64,000 bases of DNA from Rubripirellula lacrimiformis (GTDB lineage Bacteria; Planctomycetota; Planctomycetia; Pirellulales; Pirellulaceae): assembly GCF_007741535.1 (NCBI RefSeq), contig NZ_CP036525.1:8432001-8496000 (forward strand), given 5' to 3'. Positions 2,823 to 15,909 of the stretch are shown in pieces (position 1 is the first letter of the stretch; every line of letters starts with the position of its first letter). Position numbers and translations under genes: made by a program. The notes beneath the pieces were generated by a model. It was given only the letters and a program-made list of their open reading frames with translations. It was not told the DNA's origin and ran no database searches.

Positions 2823-3493
2823 GCATGGCTATGCGTCCGGACCAAAAGTTTCGCGACCAGCCATCGTTGTTCGATGCCCCTGCGGTCGTCCCCGGGCCTG
2901 CGATTGCCCCCGGTCCGGTGGACGCCAATCGAGGTGTCGACCAGGGCACAAAGTCTCGCAACGAAACCTATCGCGAGATTGCCAGCGAGTTGCCCGGGCG
3001 CTGCCGCATTTGGTTGGGCCGAATCATCGCAGCGGGCGAACGTGGCGTGACGCTGGATGAACTTTCGGCATCGACCGGGTTGCCGGCCAACGAGTTCAGC
3101 GGGCGGATCACCGAACTGAAACGTCGCGGGATGATCCATCACACCGACCAGCGACGTCCCACGCGAAAGGGCAGCACGGCGGCCGTGATTCGAGCGACCG
3201 AAAGGGCAAGGCAACCACACCACCATCCACAGGGATTTGACGACATGACAACCAAGACTTTGCCACCGACCGATTTGCCAGACGCGATCACGAACAACCG
3301 CGTCCCGCGCGACCAGCACGGTGATTTGATCAAGCATGGTGGTCGGTACTTGGTGCCGAACCTTGGACGCGTCGAGATTCACTATGACGTCGATGCGGAC
3401 GAGTACTTCTTCTTTCGCCCTGGGCGTCCGGATCAGCAACAGCCGGTAAGCATGCTGCCACATCAGACGCAATCGTGGGAACTGGTCGGGTAA
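2819..3493 (+). CDS. Phage early protein with winged-helix segment
   Basis: 224 residues, start ATG overlapping the previous stop. Residues 50-115 look like a winged helix ([20 protein letters not shown], then [19 protein letters not shown] and [16 protein letters not shown]), a layout used in DNA-binding or replisome-loading phage proteins. The C-terminal 80 residues contain a compact segment ([20 protein letters not shown]) that could be a separate domain. No family is recognised. Its place ahead of csrA and the integrase suggests a role in early regulation or replication. Confidence 0.5.
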
Positions 3494-3579
3494 GCAGACC
3501 AGACCGCGAAAGCCGGTTCGAATCCGGGCATCGCAATTGGACGTTCTTAGTTTTTGACAATCACACGGAAGGGTACAGG

Positions 3580-3783
3580 ATGTTGGTTTTGTCACGCCAC
3601 AAAGGCGAGAGCATCGTTATCGGCGGTGGTCTCATCGAGATCGTCGTCACAGAGATCCGCGGCGATAAGGTCCGCATCGGCGTCAAGGCGCCGCGTGATG
3701 TGGTGATCGATCGCCGCGAAGTTCACGAGATCAAGGTCGCCCGAGCATCGTCTTCGATCCAGAACCCTGGCGGGGAGGAATGA
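3580..3783 (+). CDS. csrA: Carbon storage regulator CsrA
   Basis: 67 residues. The first ~55 match the CsrA fold: [16 protein letters not shown], then the interrupted strand pattern [20 protein letters not shown] and the conserved RREVHEI segment. CsrA dimers bind GGA motifs in mRNA leaders and block or stabilise translation. The ATG at 3580 follows a purine-rich site (GGAAGGG); the in-frame codons further upstream do not fit the family. The C-terminal tail ([12 protein letters not shown]) is normal in length. The gene ends 3 nt before the integrase start, so both are probably translated from one message. A prophage-encoded copy could reprogram host mRNA use. Confidence 0.92.
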
Positions 3784-5995: not shown

Positions 5996-6787
5996 ATGGG
6001 CAAGACATACGAAAAGGCACCTGCGTTGTGCCGGCGATTGGTCGGCGAACTGTTGACCCAATTTCACCAACCGCTGGCCGACTTCAAAACGGTCATCGAC
6101 ATCCTGTTGGTACGTGCTTCGCGGGATGCCGACGGGCAACCGATCGGACCGGCACTGCAGGGCAGGAGCGGCTATCCGGCCGCGGCTTCGGTCAGCGTCA
6201 CGAAGTTGAAAGACCGAGTGATGGGACGTGGCGACGCCGAGATCCTGATCGATGGCGACCGATACACGAATTGGACCGAGAAGACGCTGCGGGCAATCTT
6301 GGACCACGAACTGGAACACTTGGAGTTCACCGGCAACGTAGACGACTTGGGGCGACCGAAGTTTCGATTGCGTCCGCACGATGTCGAGTTTGGTTGGTTC
6401 GATTCGATCGCACGACGTCACGGAGATGACTCGGGCGAAGTGCTGCAAGCGAAACGGTTCTTCGGTGCTCAACCGATCCGCCAGCTGTATTTGCCGGGCT
6501 GGGAAGATGGCCCGCCGGCGGTTGATCCTGATGCGATCAAGCCATCGCTATCGCGGACCAAGGCCGCGGCGCACTTTCGCGACCTGTTTGATGAAGTCGA
6601 CCCCAAGACGTTGATGTATGCGGCGGTCCCTTATGAGTCAGGCGGCGAAACGTCGATCGTCGAAGCATGGGTCGACAAGACAGACCGGGCCGTGATCTTC
6701 ACCGCCGGCAAAGTCATCGACATCACGCCGCACCTGCAACTGTCGGCTCGTTGGGCCAAACGGGAAGGCGGGAACGATGGCCGTTAG
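5996..6787 (+). CDS. Putative phage metallopeptidase-domain protein
   Basis: 263 residues. A zinc-peptidase-like motif H104-E-x-x-H108 (ILDHELEHLEFTG) sits in the layout of the putative phage metallopeptidase family: an N-terminal helix with Leu/His pattern, a central ILLVRASRD strand, an EILIDGDRYTNW strand, then the HExxH helix and a DVEFGWFD segment. The C-terminal 100 residues are an unassigned domain. The start at 5996 follows GAAGGGGG. The gene overlaps the next by 11 nt. Targets are unknown; relatives sit in phage early operons and may cleave host proteins or be DNA-linked factors. Confidence 0.6.
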   Translation: MGKTYEKAPALCRRLVGELLTQFHQPLADFKTVIDILLVRASRDADGQPIGPALQGRSGYPAAASVSVTKLKDRVMGRGDAEILIDGDRYTNWTEKTLRAILDHELEHLEFTGNVDDLGRPKFRLRPHDVEFGWFDSIARRHGDDSGEVLQAKRFFGAQPIRQLYLPGWEDGPPAVDPDAIKPSLSRTKAAAHFRDLFDEVDPKTLMYAAVPYESGGETSIVEAWVDKTDRAVIFTAGKVIDITPHLQLSARWAKREGGNDGR

Positions 6788-7913
6788 CGTGACCCAGTAT
6801 GGATTGGGATTCGAATCGATCGACGCCGAGACCGTCGCCGGGCAGAAGGCGCGTCGGGCGTGGCGCCGTCTGATCGCACGCGCGGCGGCGTCGATCGGTT
6901 TGGACCGATCCCAAGCTGAGTTCGTCATGCTTCGACGCTTGGCCCGGTTGCGCCACCACGAAGGCCCAGTGACCGCGTTGGCGCCGCGTCATGGTGCCAG
7001 CCGAGCCCGTTCGGCGTTTCGTCGCCTTGAATCACTGGGGCTGGTCGATCGCACCGTCACCGTCGCACCAGGCGGGCGTGGCCGGATCTCTCGCACCGTG
7101 ATCGATCCCGGCGCCGTGGTCCGATGGTCTGACCTGACCAGCGAACGGGATGCTGTTTGCCAGTTGATGAACCGAAAGCCATCCAGTGGCCCCAATGCCC
7201 GAACGCTTGCCAACCCAACGGCGCAACCAACGGCGCATCCAACGGCGCATCCAACGGCGCATCCAACGGCGCATCCAACGGCGCATCCAACGGCGCAACC
7301 ACCGGCGCATCCAACGGCGCAACCACCGGCGCCATGCCGTACCTCTTTATCCATGGATACTAAGGATTACATGGTCCATGGTTCCGGAGGCGACGAGGGA
7401 CGTGGACACGCGGACCAGAAAAATGTGATTGGCAAAGCGAAGCCATCGATCATTGCAGGCCCAGCGAATGCCCAATCGATCGTGACACCTGTGATCGTGA
7501 CCAGCGACCAGGCATCGACCATCGCGGCGTCGATCTTCGAACGGTTGAACTATCACGGGGCCGAGGGGCAAACGTTGTGGAAGGCAGCTGCGGCCCAACA
7601 CGCCGGCATCATCAGCGAGGCGGCGGTCAGTTCGGCCGTGATGGGCTGCCAGGCGTGTCGTCCGCGTAATCCGCCGGCCTACTTCCGAACGACGTTGGCG
7701 AACGTCCTGGGCGTGTCCAAGGGCGACCTGTCCAAAATTCTAAGCCGTGTTCGAATCGGGCCTCATTTACCAGGCGGTCCACCACGTCAGATCCAGCCGG
7801 CCAAGCGATCGGTACCGGTCAGACGCAACCCCAACAACGATGGCGTGATGAACGATCGCCGAAACGATGTCGCCAACCAACTGGCCGCGATCATGCGAGC
7901 CGAAACCCGCTAA
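6777..7913 (+). CDS. Replication-initiator-like protein with repeat linker
   Basis: 378 residues in three parts. Residues 40-115 form a winged helix (AEFVMLRRLARLRHHEGPV, then SRARSAFRRLESLGLVDR with a basic wing). Residues 146-185 are a T-A-H/Q-P repeat encoded by ten 12-bp tandem units. The C-terminal half has a conserved-looking helical domain (EAAVSSAVMGCQACRPRNPP, AYFRTTLANVLGVSKGDL). DNA-binding N-domain, repeats inside the gene, and a C-terminal interaction domain resemble lambda O in organisation, though sequence identity is not claimed. It is the most likely replication initiator of the prophage. Confidence 0.5.
   Translation: MAVSVTQYGLGFESIDAETVAGQKARRAWRRLIARAAASIGLDRSQAEFVMLRRLARLRHHEGPVTALAPRHGASRARSAFRRLESLGLVDRTVTVAPGGRGRISRTVIDPGAVVRWSDLTSERDAVCQLMNRKPSSGPNARTLANPTAQPTAHPTAHPTAHPTAHPTAHPTAQPPAHPTAQPPAPCRTSLSMDTKDYMVHGSGGDEGRGHADQKNVIGKAKPSIIAGPANAQSIVTPVIVTSDQASTIAASIFERLNYHGAEGQTLWKAAAAQHAGIISEAAVSSAVMGCQACRPRNPPAYFRTTLANVLGVSKGDLSKILSRVRIGPHLPGGPPRQIQPAKRSVPVRRNPNNDGVMNDRRNDVANQLAAIMRAETR
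7211..7330 (+). repeat. Ten tandem 12-bp repeats, candidate origin iterons
   Basis: Ten uninterrupted 12-bp units from 7211 to 7330; the main form is GCATCCAACGGC. The first unit reads CAACCCAACGGC, and GCAACC-type variants occur at units 2, 8 and 10. The repeats lie in frame in the middle of the putative initiator gene and encode (T/P)A(H/Q)P. Direct repeats of about one helical turn inside an initiator gene are typical phage origins, as in lambda O. A purely protein-level repeat expansion is the alternative. Confidence 0.5.
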
Positions 7914-8955: not shown

Positions 8956-9078
8956 TTTTGCGTCATGTTCTGCGAGCACATGGGAGGGCGCCCCGACCAA
9001 CCGACACGACTCGTGTCCTCAGTGGTCAGCATCAGCCGTAGTACTGACGAGTCCGAGTTTGTTACTGGAAGCAGTGGC

Positions 9079-9118
9079 GTCAGTCGAAGACTCGACTGAC
9101 GAAACTGATTTTATTGGG
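9079..9118 (+). terminator. Hairpin at end of early operon
   Basis: An 8-bp perfect stem (GTCAGTCG / CGACTGAC, 9079-9086 and 9093-9100) with a 6-nt loop is followed by GAAACTGATTTTATT. It lies after the last + strand early gene and before the convergent - strand array, so it is a plausible end for early transcription. The rest of 8956-9275 contains the dead 3' end of the ASCH gene and no other supported gene. Confidence 0.4.
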
Positions 9119-9275
9119 CGTCTCGTACCGTGTCGCTCGTGGCTTTGCGATGAGCGGCAAGGGGGCCTGGCGTCTTTCCATGACGTCAGGCGTCCAGCGA
9201 GCTTGTCCATCGAAGTACTTACAGCCGAGGGCTTGTTTAGCCTTGAAGAGCGTTGGAGGTCGCTTGCATCCTTGC

Positions 9276-9366
9276 GACGAAACGCCTAGTGCGGACCCGC
9301 ATGCTAGGTGTTGTGGGAGGGGTCCGCAGAAATGCGGCCCCTATCCCGATTGCGATGGTCACCCGC
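9276..9366 (-). other. attC-like site at 3' end of ATPase cassette (degenerate)
   Basis: The - strand stretch after the ATPase stop contains an imperfect palindrome. Arms GCGGACCC (9291-9298) and GGGTCCGC (9320-9327) are framed by AAC at 9281-9283 and by GATGGTCACCCG ending near 9366. The latter matches the ATGGTTAYCCG word at the other cassette 3' borders with one change. The site is less regular than those at 13.5-15 kb and is assigned mainly by position and the border word. Confidence 0.4.
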
Positions 9367-9370
9367 TTGA

Positions 9371-10657
9371 TCAAGTACGCGCAAGTGAGTCCAGTTTTTT
9401 TGACCAACGCAAATAGAATAGCAAGTATGGATCAACAATATCCAAGACATTCTCGTCGGAATCCCACTCCACGACGCGTTGTTCTGGATACATATCCACT
9501 GCGATTCTCGCAATTTGACTGCATGCTTGGTAAAGACTTGAGTTGAACGGCGTGCCTCCGGCACATGCGACTTTGACGCGTTCGGATAGGACGTGTTGAT
9601 TCAGTGAGAGCGCTGGCGGGTCTGCGGCCATCGCCAAGAGCACGGTTCGGTAAACATCGCCGGATGATCCATCGCTAAGGCAATATTCCTTTCGTTCTGT
9701 CCCGCGAGTATTAGGCCCTTTGTGGCACTTGGCGACTAAAGAACTGAAGTCTGTACGTGTTGAAGTCTCCTCGAGAATTTCGTCGCGAACCGTTTGGTCC
9801 AGAGTCAAGGTTTTGTGCTCGCCTTGGAAGTCGCGAATGTTCATGGTGAAGCAGACTTGTAAGCAGAGAGCCTGCATCAACTGCGGAGATCCGGACGCTT
9901 CAGTTGCGAAGAAGTTCAGCGACGCAGGGTCGAGCGTTACGTTAAGTAGCGGAAACCCAATGTCACCAATAGCCACAAGATGTGGAATATCCCAATAGTC
10001 CGAGTCAATCGCACGTATTCGCCCCCGCAGCTCAGGATTACCTCGAACAACGTCGTCAGATCGATGCGGAACGGACGCGGTGCAAATCTTGACTTGCAGA
10101 CGCGCCGCCTCCTTTATTTCACGCGCGACTTGAGATTGAATTTCTCTCGGCATGTAGTGAAAATCATCGACAAGCAGCACGAAATCGCTTCCAGCAATCT
10201 CGGACGCGACTTGCTGAAGCCCGCCACGTACGTTACTCGTAGATTTTCCTGTTGTCTTTGACGCGTTGCCTTTGAGTTCCGTTGACGCCTCTCCCTGGGC
10301 GACAAGCGGGATACCTGCCTTTCCTCCGGCGCTCGCGGAGATGGATCCGCCAAAACTAGCTGACGCCTGTTCGGATGATTCGGCGGGAATTCCGATCCAG
10401 TTCAGCACACGGTCCCAAAGCATTGCGCCACTTTCAAGACCGGCGCCTGTGATAACGATCAACTCGTCTTCACCAACAACACGTTGAATGAGTACGGTCT
10501 TTCCCGATTTCGACGGCCCCGAAAGAGAGACAATCTCACCTGGTGTTGCGAGCGCATCACGCAGGCGGTTCTCAAGACGCTCGTCGTCACGCGCGATGTA
10601 AGTTTGGATTGGATAGTCACTTGGCGTGAAGACATCCGTTGCGCGTATCGTTGTCAT
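9371..10657 (-). CDS. P-loop ATPase (AAA/STAND-like), cassette gene
   Basis: 428 residues. Walker A GPSKSGKT at 47-54, Walker B FVLLVDDFHYM near 159-169, and a downstream arginine-rich helix; between the Walker motifs lies a Gly/Ser/Ala-rich insert (about 98-145). The C-terminal half has no clear enzyme motif and may be a winged-helix or sensor region (WDIPHLVAIGDIGFPLLNVT, ...YLLFYLRWSKK at the end). Similar NTPases serve as signal-sensing ATPases in defence and regulation. The ATG at 10657 lies 20 nt after a cassette border word (GTTATCCGAC), so the gene is read as a mobile cassette. Its function is not known. Confidence 0.65.
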   Translation of the reverse strand: MTTIRATDVFTPSDYPIQTYIARDDERLENRLRDALATPGEIVSLSGPSKSGKTVLIQRVVGEDELIVITGAGLESGAMLWDRVLNWIGIPAESSEQASASFGGSISASAGGKAGIPLVAQGEASTELKGNASKTTGKSTSNVRGGLQQVASEIAGSDFVLLVDDFHYMPREIQSQVAREIKEAARLQVKICTASVPHRSDDVVRGNPELRGRIRAIDSDYWDIPHLVAIGDIGFPLLNVTLDPASLNFFATEASGSPQLMQALCLQVCFTMNIRDFQGEHKTLTLDQTVRDEILEETSTRTDFSSLVAKCHKGPNTRGTERKEYCLSDGSSGDVYRTVLLAMAADPPALSLNQHVLSERVKVACAGGTPFNSSLYQACSQIARIAVDMYPEQRVVEWDSDENVLDIVDPYLLFYLRWSKKLDSLART

Positions 10658-10670
10658 AATTCTCTTTAGT

Positions 10671-10770
10671 CGGATAACGAATTGCGATCTATCCTTCGGC
10701 CAGGCGTGAAAGACCCAAGTGTTGCATTTTGGGGTTGCCGCCTGGCTGACGGATAGATCGTGCGTTGAAC
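10671..10770 (-). other. attC-like palindrome 5' of the ATPase
   Basis: A 21-bp imperfect inverted repeat (GATCTATCC... / ...GGATAGATC) with a loop of about 30 nt. It is framed on the - strand by GTTCAAC and GTTATCCGAC. GTTCAAC fits the integron R'' consensus RYYYAAC, and GTTATCC is the border word seen at other cassettes. Because it adjoins a truncated IS91-like gene, an IS terminal hairpin is an alternative reading. Confidence 0.5.
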
Positions 10771-10824
10771 TTTGTCGCCGCACTGGGGGCAGCGCAGCGG
10801 ACGTAGGCCGAGACGACCGGCCCG

Positions 10825-11247
10825 TCAGAATGAGTCTACCAGATACGACTGGGGGTAGCCGAGATCGCCCGTAAATCCTGCCAGCGGCAACTGAACCATG
10901 GCGATTGGCTCCCGCTCGATTCCCTCTGCACTTTCTACCTGGGTTTCCACGTACCAATCGTAAAAATCGGTACCGTAGCTGGCCGTCCAGAGACGACGAT
11001 GCGACTCCCTTTGCCGGTCGGCGTACCACCCCGGGCAGCGATCGTCCTCTCGCCAGAAGATCTCTGCCCATGAAGGCTTCGGCGTATCTTGGACCAGTTC
11101 TATCCGGTCGCTGCCGCAGTGCTCGCGGCAACGATCTTGGTAGTCGCCTCGGCGATTGTTGCTCCATCCACCTAGGTAGCGAGTCTTCGTTAGCTGGTCC
11201 GGCTGAATGTGAAGGCACCAGCGGCGCACGAATTCGCTGGAGCTCAT
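10825..11247 (-). pseudogene. IS91-family transposase fragment (C-terminal part)
   Basis: 140 residues (MSSSEFVRRWCLHI...) matching the C-terminal end of IS91-type transposases as I recall them: the EFVRRWCLHIQP segment, then TRYLGGWSNNRRGDYQDRC, and a PSWAEIFW region. The catalytic Y2/HUH core that should precede this is missing: upstream lies only a half attC-like site and the nuclease gene. It is read as a 5'-truncated remnant, not an active transposase. A free-standing small protein is possible. Confidence 0.45.
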
Positions 11248-11279
11248 CGTCACTGACGCTTGACAAGCAAGCGTAAAGC

Positions 11280-11298
11280 GATCACATGGTTACGTGTC
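11280..11298 (-). other. Half attC-like site at 3' end of nuclease cassette
   Basis: The word ATGGTTACG (11286-11294) matches the 3' border of the other cassettes, and the nuclease stop codon TAA (11290-11292) lies inside it, as the lipoprotein stop does in its own site. No matching second half (AAC side) is found leftwards; the sequence runs straight into the IS91-like fragment. The attC appears to have been cut by that insertion or deletion. Confidence 0.4.
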
Positions 11299-12099
11299 TC
11301 GATCGCCCACGATAAAGGAGTGCTTTGGTATCTCATTCTTGGCAAATTCCAAAATTGAAATGAAGGAAGAATGCATATCGCTCGCAAATGCGTCGACAGA
11401 ATCCCGACGAACGATAGAGATGCAATTCAGGAGATTGTGCATTACAGGGTTGCGCCAAATCAGAATCCCAGAGTCAACCGTCGAGACAACCATCTCTCCG
11501 GCGTCATTGAGAAATGCTTCGACAAGGGGCGCGTCAATCACAATCACCGGAAACGCGACCAATGCGTAACGCTCCCCCATCGACGTGTGCCTGTCAGCGT
11601 CAGCAAGCATCGCACCGGCGGCTTTAGAAACAGACATCGCGGCACTGTACGCAACATCCTGGCCGGTTGTAAACGCTTGTGTGACGCTATACGCAGTACG
11701 TTCCGGAACCTGGAACGCCGGAAGGTTCTGCATGGATTTGTTGTGAGCCATGCTATTCAGAAAACTCTTGGCGAGCTTTGAATAGCCACGTTGTGCGACG
11801 CGTGCAGGGTCAGCGATACGGCTGGGATTAGTGAAGAGAATCCAGGGCTTCCCAGGGGTGGACTTGCATTCAATTGCGAGCGACACGCGAAGGAACATCT
11901 CGCCAAACGTGGCCTGGACCGACGCCCGTAGATCCAGCTCTCGTGAATCTCCCGTTACGGGGTCCTCAAAGTAGTCGGATTGGATCACATTAAATCCAGC
12001 TCGGTCGAAAGACCGTGACGCAAACATCTCCAGCGGGTAGCCCTGAGACGAAAGCCATTCGTGAATCTTTGTTTCCATGTTTGAGTGCGTGTGACTCAT
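11290..12099 (-). CDS. PD-(D/E)XK-type nuclease-like protein, cassette gene
   Basis: 269 residues. The N-terminal 90 fit a restriction-endonuclease-like fold: FDRAGFNVIQSDYFEDP, then the motif Asp56 in RELDLRAS and Glu77-Cys-Lys79 in LAIECKSTPGKPW (D-x20-E-x-K). A hydrophilic middle follows, then a strand-rich stretch (YALVAFPVIVIDAPLVEAF). Proteins of this layout cut DNA or RNA, often in restriction or anti-phage systems. The ATG at 12099 lies 13 nt after GTTACGTGAACTAA, a variant of the cassette border. It shares the array with the ATPase but is separated from it by a transposase remnant, so a joint system is unproven. Confidence 0.6.
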   Translation of the reverse strand: MSHTHSNMETKIHEWLSSQGYPLEMFASRSFDRAGFNVIQSDYFEDPVTGDSRELDLRASVQATFGEMFLRVSLAIECKSTPGKPWILFTNPSRIADPARVAQRGYSKLAKSFLNSMAHNKSMQNLPAFQVPERTAYSVTQAFTTGQDVAYSAAMSVSKAAGAMLADADRHTSMGERYALVAFPVIVIDAPLVEAFLNDAGEMVVSTVDSGILIWRNPVMHNLLNCISIVRRDSVDAFASDMHSSFISILEFAKNEIPKHSFIVGDRDT

Positions 12100-12106
12100 C
12101 TTAGTT

Positions 12107-12180
12107 CACGTAACTTGTTTCGCACCCATTACAGCGGGTGATGACAGGGTTTTTTTGGCTTATTATCACCGGTTGGTGCC
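12107..12180 (-). other. attC-like palindrome at the end of repeat copy 1
   Basis: Nested inverted repeats between AAC (12112-12114) and GTT (12172-12174): outer arms GCACC / GGTGC (12122, 12175) and inner arms CGGGTGAT / ATCACCGG around a T-rich loop. On the - strand it reads CCAAC ... GTTACG, the same polarity as the cassette attC-like sites. It sits at the 3' end of a phage-late-end segment. Confidence 0.45.
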
Positions 12181-12545
12181 GATGGGCTTCACGGCCGAGA
12201 CCTTACTATGGCCGTTCCAGACGGGGGATGCAATCGCGGTACGATAGCATTTGGGTAAGTCGACTCGTTTCGTGCATTCTCCGAAGTTTTGTGGGCCACA
12301 CGGTTGCGGCACCGCCGGGGTTGCCGGCTGTCTTGCCGGATTCCATCAAATTGAACATGCCGCTGTTGACCGGCACACTTCCGACACGGTTTTGATCCAG
12401 GTACGAGAGACTGCCGACCAGCTGCACGGCCACGTTGCCGGCATCGATCTTGTCCAAGGACGGGGATAGCCATTCGGGATCGGCAATCACCATGTCGTGG
12501 TCCCGTCAACCGAAGTACTTCACGCCGGCGGGAGTGTCCCGTAGT
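12112..12545. repeat. 434-bp direct repeat, copy 1 (duplicated phage late end)
   Basis: This segment recurs at 15476-15909 with roughly 95% identity by eye and one indel (7 versus 6 thymines in the T-run). Both copies start exactly at the AAC of a cassette border and end in a gene whose last residues are RDTPAGVKYFG. Copy 2 is the true end of the prophage late operon; copy 1 is a second, isolated version carrying a 95-aa gene. Together they flank four cassettes. Confidence 0.85.
12206..12493 (-). CDS. Duplicate of the last phage late gene (95 aa)
   Basis: 95 residues (MVIADPEWLSPSLDKIDAGN...), about 90% identical to the protein of 15569-15856. The frame is intact and most differences are conservative, so it may still be expressed, but it lies in a remnant without the rest of the late operon. 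Function unknown; a virion or late accessory protein is likely by context. Confidence 0.5.
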   Translation of the reverse strand: MVIADPEWLSPSLDKIDAGNVAVQLVGSLSYLDQNRVGSVPVNSGMFNLMESGKTAGNPGGAATVWPTKLRRMHETSRLTQMLSYRDCIPRLERP

Positions 12546-13381: not shown

Positions 13382-13426
13382 AGAAGCTATTTCTCCTTCA
13401 ATTCTCGATGTAATAGTCCGCAATGG

Positions 13427-13516
13427 GATAACGGTGGCCATCAGCGGGTGGCGACGAGCGATTCAACCATCCTCAAGCAGCCTGACACGCCACTCCGTTG
13501 CACAGGATGGTTATCA
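13427..13516 (-). other. attC-like site between DinB and TIGR03067 cassettes
   Basis: Imperfect palindrome framed by AAC (13430-13432) and GTT (13510-13512). Arms include GGGTGGCG / CGCCACTCC, and the 3' border reads GCACAGGATGGTTATC. The border words match those of the sites at 14230 and 14895. Confidence 0.55.
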
Positions 13517-13603
13517 AACTTACAACGCTGCGCTTCGGGGTGGCCGGGAAGGAACGCTTGCCCGCCCTCGTCACTCCCCCTAGTTTGCCGCAATCCGCCC
13601 CGC

Positions 13604-14221: not shown

Positions 14222-14229
14222 ATGTCAGT

Positions 14230-14321
14230 CGGGTAACGGTACCCGTCACCGGGCCGGGAAAGTTGATCGTCCATTTGCGAAACCGCGCAAGCCCGGCTCC
14301 GGTGCACGGGATGGTTACCCG
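14230..14321 (-). other. attC-like site between lipoprotein and DinB cassettes
   Basis: Framed by GGGTAAC (14231-14237) and GTTACCC (14314-14320), perfect complements. Inner arms ACCCGTCACCGG / CCGGTGCACGGG pair with one extra base (the C in GTGCACC), like the extrahelical base of true attC sites. The lipoprotein stop codon TAA lies inside the 3' box. This is the clearest site of the array. Confidence 0.7.
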
Positions 14322-14884
14322 CCGTCTCGGGTCGTCGGGTTCGTTGTGTCGCTTTCACGCAGTGCATCGGTGAAATCGTCAAGAGGAAAGTCGTCGAACA
14401 GCTCTGGTTCGGTCTCGCTCAGTTCTTCAATTTTGGTGGCCATCGTGTTCGGATCGACAAATCGAACATAGATCGCCATGTACGAATCCTCGTCGTCGTC
14501 GTCACTGAGTTGGATCGTAAACCCAGCGTCGTCCATGCGCCAGATACCCATCGTTGGATCGTCAGCAAAAGTCGGTTGTTCGTGTTTGCCGAATCGCGTA
14601 TTGATTGCAGAGCGAAGTACCTCAAAAGACTGCGACCGATCGTAATGAACCATCGCACCGTAGCAAGCACCGTCTTTGTAGTCGAGAACGACCTGTCGTG
14701 GAGACCAGTATGCGTTTGCGGAAGTCAAGAGCATCGGAATGGCGTCGGTCGGTGAGGAACCGAGAACCGCTTCGTTGAAAAGTTGGACACGCGTTTCAGA
14801 TGAAGGGTTGTTCGTGGCCATTGGGTCCGAGTCCCCGCAGCCTAGCGTGAGCGAAAGAACAATGAGGGCGAGAAGACGATTCAT
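14315..14884 (-). CDS. Lipoprotein of unknown function, cassette gene
   Basis: 189 residues from the ATG at 14884. Lipoprotein signal peptide MNRLLALIVLSLTLGC with a good lipobox (TLGC) and acidic +2 region (GDSD). The mature part is acidic with alternating strands (YWSPRQVVLDYKDGACYGAM, FGKHEQPTFADDPTMGIWRM). No family is recognised. Its start follows the border GTTACCCGACTGAG and its stop lies in the next attC-like site, so it is a complete single-gene cassette. Confidence 0.65.
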   Translation of the reverse strand: MNRLLALIVLSLTLGCGDSDPMATNNPSSETRVQLFNEAVLGSSPTDAIPMLLTSANAYWSPRQVVLDYKDGACYGAMVHYDRSQSFEVLRSAINTRFGKHEQPTFADDPTMGIWRMDDAGFTIQLSDDDDEDSYMAIYVRFVDPNTMATKIEELSETEPELFDDFPLDDFTDALRESDTTNPTTRDGG

Positions 14885-14894
14885 GGATCTCAGT

Positions 14895-14988
14895 CGGGTA
14901 ACGTCACGCGTCACCGGGAACGCGAGGAAATGTCTCTAGCAGGGAAATCGCTTGGATCACGTTCTCCGGTGCACGCGATGGTTCCCCG
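14895..14988 (-). other. attC-like site between DUF4279 and lipoprotein cassettes
   Basis: Framed by GGGTAAC (14896-14902) and GTTCCCC (14981-14987). Inner arms CGCGTCACCGG / CCGGTGCACGCG again pair with a single extra base, as in the 14230 site. Between arms is a ~40-nt spacer. Confidence 0.65.
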
Positions 14989-14999
14989 CCGATGTCGTT

Positions 15000-15470: not shown

Positions 15471-15545
15471 CGGGGAACTTGTTTCGCACCCATTACAGCG
15501 GGTGATGACAGGGTTTTTTGGCTTATTATCACCGGTTGGTGCCGA
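15471..15545 (-). other. attC-like palindrome at the end of repeat copy 2
   Basis: Same structure as 12107-12180: AAC at 15476-15478, GTT at 15535-15537, outer arms GCACC / GGTGC and inner arms CGGGTGAT / ATCACCGG around a T-rich loop. It lies about 25 nt after the last late phage gene and could also act as the late-operon transcription stop. Confidence 0.45.
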
Positions 15546-15909
15546 TGGGCTTCACGGCCGGGACCTTACTATGGCCGGTCCAGACGGGGGATGCAATCGC
15601 GATACGATAGCATTTGGGTAAGTCGACCCGTTTCGTGCATTTTCCGAAGTTTTGTGGGCCGGACGGTTGCAGCACCGCCGGGGTTGCCGGCGGTCTTGCC
15701 GGATTCCATTAAATTGAACATGCCGCTGTTGACCGACACACTTCCGACACGGTTTTGATCCAGGTACGAGAGACTGCCGACCAGCTGCACGGCGACGCTG
15801 CCGGCATCGATCTTGGCCACCGACCTGGTTAGCCAGTCCGGATCGGCGATCACCATGTCGTGGTCCCGTCAACCGAAGTACTTCACGCCGGCGGGCGTGT
15901 CCCGCAGTG
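15476..15909. repeat. 434-bp direct repeat, copy 2 (true phage late end)
   Basis: Partner of 12112-12545. This copy is continuous with the late operon: it covers the attC-like palindrome, the complete 95-aa gene and the last codons of the zinc-motif gene. Its left border is exactly the AAC of the DUF4279 cassette border. Confidence 0.85.
15569..15856 (-). CDS. Last late phage gene (95 aa), unknown function
   Basis: 95 residues (MVIADPDWLTRSVAKIDAGS...), no cysteine and no transmembrane segment. A Gly/Asn-rich middle (NSGMFNLMESGKTAGNPGGA) is followed by a basic end. ATG at 15856, 12 nt after the stop of the zinc-motif gene. Near-identical copy at 12206-12493. Position at the end of the tail-tip genes suggests a minor virion or accessory protein. 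Confidence 0.55.
   Translation of the reverse strand: MVIADPDWLTRSVAKIDAGSVAVQLVGSLSYLDQNRVGSVSVNSGMFNLMESGKTAGNPGGAATVRPTKLRKMHETGRLTQMLSYRDCIPRLDRP

Follow-up and report, generated by a model that had tools for sequence, protein, structure and literature searches.

We analysed a window of 64,000 nucleotides (nt) from the planctomycete Rubripirellula lacrimiformis, whose genome was a single contig of 8.54 Mb (the window covered positions 8,432,001-8,496,000), and focused on two neighbouring minus-strand genes encoding a nuclease and an ATPase. Along that strand, the nuclease gene (12099-11290) was followed by an IS91-like element (11255-10664) and then by the ATPase gene (10657-9371). Both open reading frames (ORFs) were intact, with ATG starts and with TGA and TAA stops. 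An initial annotation, made from the sequence alone, had suggested that the two genes might form a mobile anti-phage system. Our analysis indicated instead that they were two unrelated cassettes lying side by side. The coordinates of the genes and associated features are collected in Table 1.

Table 1. Features of the nuclease-ATPase region in window coordinates. AF2, AlphaFold2; pLDDT, predicted local distance difference test score; z, single-strand folding score against shuffles.
Feature	Position	Strand	Basis or remark
ATPase gene, 428 residues, PDC-S59 family, STAND/ORC-like AAA+ with winged helix (predicted)	9371..10657	-	PADLOC, AF2, structural match
Walker A (G47-T54)	10496..10519	-	sequence and alignment
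Walker B strand and Asp164-Asp165	10163..10180	-	D164 and D165 invariant in 27 rows
Insert of low model confidence (residues 94-143), after helix 77-88 and before the Walker B strand	10229..10378	-	AF2 pLDDT < 50
Amphipathic stretch (residues 104-131), conserved and dyad-alternating, with a hydrophobic tip; read as a beta-hairpin	10265..10348	-	family-mean hydrophobicity
Complete attC-like site immediately before the ATPase gene	10672..10770	-	GTTCAAC ... 22-bp imperfect inverted repeat ... GTTATCC
Repeated element with C-terminal fragment of an IS91-family transposase	10664..11255	-	ORF 10825-11253
Half of an attC-like site where the nuclease gene ends (3'), extending into the IS91-like element	11246..11292	-	three other genome copies, 87-96%; fold z -1.9
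Repeated stretch directly after the ATPase gene, starting in a half attC-like motif	9046..9359	-	five other genome copies (75-78%)
PD-(D/E)XK nuclease gene (predicted) without partner, 269 residues	11290..12099	-	AF2 model, structural matches
Catalytic motif D56 ... E77-x-K79	11863..11934	-	alignment; E24 (12028-12030) also invariant
attC-like site 1	13417..13520	-	repeats; no significant fold, z -0.18
attC-like site 2	14222..14324	-	genome matches; fold z -3.9
attC-like site 3	14887..14991	-	repeats; fold z -3.4

The co-occurrence of the two genes was checked with profiles over all ORFs at 57 loci that contained a relative of either one. None of these loci held both genes, and the window was the only place where they were found together: the nuclease was present in 0/47 ATPase loci and the ATPase in 0/10 nuclease loci. 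Near-copies were retained in these counts (the loci L055 and L091 were identical in position and several viral loci were close duplicates), and the flanks reached up to 6-10 kb, several being cut by contig ends. Among 294 sampled planctomycete genomes, the ATPase occurred in five and the nuclease in four, with the genome of the window as the sole overlap. PDC-S59, the candidate defence family of the ATPase, was also sought in the genomes of nuclease relatives and was found in 0/4. A nuclease-ATPase pair was rejected on these counts, which agreed with the refuting condition named in the initial annotation, that homologues never occur close together. It is true that in the window the genes lay on the same strand only 632 nt apart and that two-gene systems of this kind exist, for example DUF4297-HerA in the part of PMC11291478 that was available. 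However, the adjacency predicted by a two-gene defence system was absent at this sample size, and each gene had its own attC boundary, the IS91-like element standing between the two, which made such a system very improbable.

The presence of attC-like sites and of an IS91-like remnant between the genes, already suspected in the initial annotation, was borne out. The transposase fragment in the element matched NCBIfam at 5.2e-7, below the cut-off, and the Pfam family Y2_Tnp at 21.1 against a cut-off of 20.9; other copies of the element in the genome were up to 98% identical. The half attC site assigned to the nuclease gene was also found, and a GTTACGT motif preceded the nuclease start codon. 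The description of the boundaries nevertheless needed a correction since a complete attC-like site was located just upstream of the ATPase gene as well, with 18 nt from its GTT to the start codon and a single-strand fold of z -5.2. This site recurred together with the IS91-like element, and four places had the site but not the element (query 524-628 to 524-636, 90-94%). Because of this complete site, the ATPase gene also began like a cassette, as far as its sequence indicated. On its downstream side there was only a half motif, where the 9046-9359 repeat started, and some copies of this repeat were near other integron arrays. A known intron or riboswitch did not explain the repeat since an Rfam scan of the window gave zero matches. 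Thus, with attC-like boundaries of its own at each gene, the nuclease and the ATPase were separately bounded, and both appeared to be integron cassettes, sharing attC sites with the resident integrons, in an integrase-less array inside a prophage. The earlier suggestion that they were independent mobile cassettes now brought close together agreed with these separate boundaries and with the lack of shared loci. We also observed that the ATPase frame continued upstream without a stop across the IS91-like element, so that the whole ORF had 631 residues (9371-11266). A read-through fusion of the element with the ATPase was possible; the internal ATG agreed with the start of the family.

The Walker motifs reported for the ATPase were found as GPSKSGKT (residues 47-54) and VLLVDDFH (residues 160-167). 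In an alignment of 27 rows G47, G52, K53, D164 and D165 were invariant and T54 was nearly so. No Pfam or NCBIfam family matched over the curated cut-off, in line with the earlier remark that the protein had no obvious housekeeping domain. PADLOC assigned it to the single-gene candidate PDC-S59 at 2e-31 (residues 7-419 on 6-403 of 428), and the phage family phrog_6841, of unknown function, matched at 3.4e-7. No paper on PDC-S59 was found by name or protein accession in the open literature that we searched. The AlphaFold2 model, built from 27 sequences, had a pLDDT of 84.8 and a predicted template modelling score (pTM) of 0.80, with residues 94-143 below a pLDDT of 50. Its best structural match was the archaeal protein 2qen (Z 19.2, root-mean-square deviation (rmsd) 5.2, 307 aligned residues, 16% identity), followed by ORC/Cdc6 proteins and 2fna (Z 16.5, rmsd 5.7, 302 residues, 10% identity), and MuB, TnsC and RuvB were also among the matches. 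Sequence searches of solved structures gave no useful relatives, and Foldseek against viral models returned mostly clamp loaders and generic ATPases. The predicted model aligned over nearly its full length to 2qen and 2fna, including a winged helix after the ATPase domain. According to this model, the ATPase belonged to the STAND/ORC type and had a winged helix as its only additional domain. A C-terminal repeat sensor was absent, as the protein had only 428 residues without any Pfam repeat family and its model matched 2qen to residue 418; therefore, it was not classed as a member of the Avs/NLR group.

Relatives of the ATPase were found at 34 IMG/VR viral loci (28-51% identity), in nine plasmid records and in one phage record. 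The viral loci came from an alignment query and were among 89 pattern matches; a single-sequence scan of viral sequences with the ATPase confirmed nothing, so a failed scan means little. In cellular genomes the distribution was patchy, namely 7/398 sampled genomes in the phylum of a Moraxellaceae genome, 5/396 in that of a Nocardia genome and 7/296 in that of a Tenacibaculum genome, with none in 14 control genomes. At seven of the 34 viral loci (L041-L045, L048, L052) the ATPase gene was 33-41 bp from a P2-type portal gene and faced it, and at six others (L029, L031-L035) it was directly between gpV- and gpS-like genes. Two more (L040, L023) had it next to a gpV-like gene, and the remaining 19 had no such P2 gene in the available stretch. 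At one of the portal sites (L052, 5974-7258) the prophage ATPase gene was split over two frames; the hairpin tests described below, the tree and the 27-row alignment were made without this locus. In several prophages the ATPase was a plus-strand gene amid oppositely oriented genes. DNA resembling one viral member was present in 15/5,426 Escherichia coli genomes; ten had matches covering at least 80% of the query, and five matched over just 45 nt. Two of the ten were inspected, and both had the order replication endonuclease, small genes, ATPase, portal and terminase. This is the gpA-gpQ interval, a hotspot in which, according to the available part of PMC9122126, antiviral systems have been discovered and assayed by Rousset and colleagues. 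Another ATPase relative (L096) was beside a gene encoding a DUF4238 domain, for which that paper reports resistance to T7. Separately, near the ATPase of one viral contig (L021, 3342-5273) we observed a protein that combined a nucleotide cyclase domain with TPR repeats and weakly matched a Pycsar cyclase.

These contexts bear on whether the ATPase serves defence or the biology of the phages and plasmids themselves, such as copy control, replication or the lysis-lysogeny decision. The latter would suit a fold like that of ORC/Cdc6 and MuB with a winged helix, and it was phages and plasmids that carried the family. On the other hand, the patchy spread, the location at cargo sites and the existence of relatives with TIR domains (see below) made a phage-housekeeping role less likely, and we considered it rather unlikely overall. 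Judging from homology and genomic context, a defence role of the ATPase was likely. The initial annotation had proposed that a prophage might carry both genes for exclusion; this was a good reading for the ATPase, some relatives of which were in prophages at a known antiviral cargo site. Its broader idea of a defence-related role was probably right.

Our new observation concerned the insert before Walker B that AlphaFold2 left at low confidence. Averaged over the family, its hydrophobicity alternated residue by residue from 104 to 116, passed through an apolar tip from I116 to A120 (I-P-L-V-A in the window protein) and alternated again from 120 to 131; columns with <18 letters, including the mostly gapped P117, were omitted from this profile. 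In a scan of twelve-column windows, those of the hairpin ranked first of 406 in the 27-row alignment and first of 407 in a set of 14 rows thinned to <=50% identity (0.92 and 0.90 inside the hairpin, compared with 0.79 for the best window outside). Permutation of the insert columns reached the hairpin score in 0/3000 trials with either set. When clades were aligned and tested apart, the score was reached in 0/2000 permutations for clade A (the window clade, 19 rows), in 0/2000 for clade B (six rows that represented three sampled groups and were absent from the 27) and in 4/2000 for clade D (12 rows of plasmid, viral-contig and genome origin). In these three clades, the pattern was thus that of an amphipathic hairpin of membrane-spanning length. 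Between clades the residue identities changed while the alternation persisted, as expected if the pattern itself was selected. Membrane insertion by beta-barrel pore-forming proteins makes use of such strands, which measure about 12 residues and are apolar on one face and at the tip. It was therefore plausible that the insert might be a membrane-inserting beta-hairpin able to contribute to a pore, which we put forward tentatively; the ATPase was not classed as a beta-barrel pore-forming protein. No description of a hairpin in this ATPase family was found in the open literature on STAND or AAA+ proteins with a pore or hairpin, including the available parts of PMC7159879 and PMC13092281.

Six relatives from six genomes (L005, L121, L132-L135) had a C-terminal TIR domain, identified as Pfam TIR_2 in the first two and by the same sequence motif in the other four. 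One of them (L005) also matched PDC-S59 at 1.6e-18. The insert was absent in 6/6 of these relatives, where 40-41 residues separated Walker A from Walker B, compared with 79-111 residues in 43 other rows. A tree of 52 rows, in which near-copies were thinned at 0.85 and which was built without L018, L060 and the partial or very distant L119, L122, L124, L126, L127 and L136, placed the TIR group in one clade (100/100), and the insert label needed three changes on it. In its own right, this clade represented a compact STAND-TIR architecture. The alternation between hairpin and TIR was suggestive of an effector swap and no more.

Taken together, we favoured the explanation that the genes were two independent integron cassettes, stranded next to each other in a prophage-borne array that lacks an integrase, with the ATPase acting as a one-gene phage-exclusion factor of the PDC-S59 family and the nuclease separate from it. 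We assigned this reading a probability of about 0.6. As for the mechanism, we inferred that the STAND/ORC-like ATPase may be held inactive until infection and may then sense a product of the incoming phage, probably through its C-terminal winged-helix part. Sensing would lead to nucleotide exchange and ring formation. Each subunit of the ring would contribute its amphipathic beta-hairpin of about 28 residues, and the hairpins together would open holes in the inner membrane, stopping the infected cell before phage release. In one clade, lacking the insert, the C-terminal TIR domain would take the place of the effector. More generally, there might be a widespread prophage- and plasmid-borne STAND/ORC-like family in which a protein of about 430 residues combined a sensor, a switch and a beta-barrel pore, that is, a strand-based one-protein 'resistosome' with TIR as an interchangeable effector; we regarded this generalization as possible and still doubtful.

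A number of observations weighed against this picture. PDC-S59 was a candidate defence family only, with a catalogue entry that carried no description, and the winged helix together with the ORC, MuB and TnsC matches would fit DNA binding as well. The window copy, being in an array without an integrase, may be silent. AlphaFold2 gave no confident model of the insert from its shallow alignment. Before family averaging, a per-sequence beta-moment test of the insert was under 0.05 in 3/27 sequences. When single members were measured after thinning near-copies at 0.9 similarity, 25/45 reached a shuffle p <=0.05 and 20/45 did not; of the latter, three had no insert and one (L029) had its best window out of register. 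Poor hairpin scores were obtained for L015, L016, L030, L049, L050, L116 and L117, and clade C (three rows, badly aligned) did not pass the permutation test (114/2000). The 43 rows counted as having the insert were labelled by length rather than by the hairpin test, and L002, L006 and L014 had neither insert nor TIR. Finally, since the TIR members formed one clade, the effector swap was a single evolutionary event.

The strongest competing view was that the ATPase was still an exclusion factor and that the hairpin was a loop contacting a substrate or partner, either DNA or protein, instead of forming a membrane pore. Some AAA+ clades have substrate-contacting hairpins between a helix and the Walker B strand, and hairpins of AAA+ rings contact DNA or proteins. 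The insert had just this position, and ORC, MuB, TnsC and RuvB were among the structural matches. However, two alternating stretches of about 12 residues with a hydrophobic tip would exceed what a DNA-probing loop needs, the polar face of the hairpin mixed Lys and Glu, and the absence of the insert in the TIR-bearing members fitted an effector better. We gave this view a substantial chance, short of even odds.

The other cassette encoded a protein of 269 residues for which PADLOC gave no family and neither Pfam nor NCBIfam gave one over the curated cut-off. The D-x20-E-x-K pattern noted earlier was confirmed as D56, E77 and K79 with 20 residues between D and E. Among the columns examined in an alignment of nine sequences, G20, Y21, E24, D46, R53, E54, D56, E77 and C78 were invariant and K79 was present in 8/9, so the other refuting condition of the initial annotation, a lack of conservation of the motif residues, did not refute the nuclease. 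The alignments were made without a fragment (L056) and without L128 and L129. The AlphaFold2 model, from seven sequences, had a pLDDT of 83.1 and a pTM of 0.85. Foldseek alone returned nothing at 0.001. When the model was re-aligned to the best Foldseek chains, PD-(D/E)XK nucleases filled most of the top rows (McrC, Cdn1, Can2, Hjc, FokI, BpuSI), led by 6hz4 (McrC; Z 8.1, rmsd 3.5, 134 aligned residues). Nearly all of these VIA-align rows had Z < 8, a range where common arrangements can score, and they included phage-nucleus shell proteins. Since the motif was conserved across phyla and coincided with a predicted PD-(D/E)XK fold, it was more than chance; D, E and K alone would be weak evidence.

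Nuclease relatives were found at seven loci of an 84,980-species collection, searched with one restrictive pattern, and in three genomes of the planctomycete sample besides that of the window, one of which coincided with a locus from the larger collection. The nuclease was also present in 2/299 sampled genomes of the phylum of its Moraxellaceae relative, one being that relative, and it had no match in plasmids, phages or viral contigs. Some relatives were near predicted defence genes, namely an HNH and DUF2326 pair of the PDC-M68 kind (L090) and an OLD-like ATPase-TOPRIM gene (L054); other neighbours were a NERD protein (L058) and, as judged by eye, an integrase-like gene (L055). We read the nuclease as a stand-alone defence-type PD-(D/E)XK enzyme, which would most likely cut invading DNA by itself.

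The array containing both cassettes was flanked on the left by phage genes of early type on the plus strand (tyrosine recombinase, exonuclease, CsrA and putative phage metallopeptidase) and on the right by minus-strand late genes (a weak tail fibre-like match, a head protease, a portal and a terminase). Given this arrangement, the cassettes looked to be at a convergent junction within an apparent planctomycete prophage. The window had no tRNA. In the early region, the CsrA gene was at 3475-3783, and a protein with a PT-rich repeat was encoded at 6777-7913. Within the array, three repeats of about 100 nt (13417-13520, 14222-14324, 14887-14991) divided small same-strand genes, namely a TIGR03067-like gene (below cut-off), a DUF1572/DinB-like gene, one without a family and a DUF4279 gene. 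We read these repeats as attC sites of the resident integrons. Site 2 had 28 matches in its own genome, itself included, and several genome matches of an array site were within a few kb of two integron-integrase places (192,198 and 2,970,738). For two of the three, single-strand folding was much stronger than in shuffles (z -3.9 and -3.4), which was not so for the third (-0.2). No match in the window was obtained with a strict attC-like pattern, and a looser half-site pattern gave 19 where 12.5 were expected, a number reached by 3/100 shuffles; therefore, the attC reading was based on the repeats together with their genome matches and their folding. A stretch of about 340 nt was duplicated within the array (12112-12447 and 15476-15810), with 44 nt identical and then 95% identity over 300 nt. 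Each copy was beside a cassette start, and the duplication probably arose when a cassette, or the end of one, was copied inside the array.

The integron-integrase model had no match in the window, and thus no integrase adjoined the array. The source genome contained two integrase matches over the curated cut-off (at 192198 and 2970738) and 34 weaker or partial ones; the nearest over the cut-off was about 290 kb away, assuming a circular chromosome. This distance, together with the IS91-like debris, would suit a decayed array in which both genes were silent passengers with no present function. Intact ORFs and the family-wide conservation of the motifs spoke against it, and we considered silence of both genes unlikely.

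If the proposed mechanism of the ATPase were true, it would represent a new effector type for antiviral STAND proteins, an ATP-gated strand pore built into the sensor, and would explain how a short prophage gene could act solo. It would also provide a mechanism for a family known from a catalogue only and pinpoint residues 104-131. If the pore were wrong, one would still have to explain in another way why an ATPase carried by phages has a conserved amphipathic module. Independently of this, the nuclease added an unnamed PD-(D/E)XK family with a conserved motif. The nuclease resembled McrC, Can2 and Hjc in the motif and in its predicted core. It differed from them in that no named family was found, in a long insert that, according to the model, would split the core, and in that no conserved partner was seen.

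Integron cassettes with defence genes were already known (PMC12409362, in the part available). The defence cassettes described by Darracq et al. and Kieffer et al. 2025, in the available parts of PMC12409362 and PMC13092281, were likewise small, one-gene and likely anti-phage, whereas the present ones were in an integrase-less array of a planctomycete prophage and their function was predicted from sequence. Both inspected E. coli members of the ATPase family occupied the same site as P2 old/tin and the other systems of the gpA-gpQ hotspot (PMC9122126, in part), although the ATPase was not named in the hotspot section of that paper. With the Avs and TIR-NLR proteins, as presented in the available part of PMC9122126, the family had in common a STAND-like ATPase, TIR in one clade and prophage sites. 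In contrast to them, Pfam scans revealed no repeat sensor in the window ATPase and 11 relatives, most members were seen without a fused enzyme, and the TIR domain was C-terminal. Antiviral STAND proteins (Avs) have TIR, SIR2 or nuclease effectors. The archaeal STAND-type ATPases 2qen and 2fna had a similar layout of ATPase domain and winged helix, a comparison that covered the overall fold. No description of the alternation between hairpin and TIR was found in the open literature. Finally, PDC-S59 was already catalogued as a candidate family, and the match to its entry was near full-length; the putative hairpin pattern and its TIR alternative were what our analysis would add to it.

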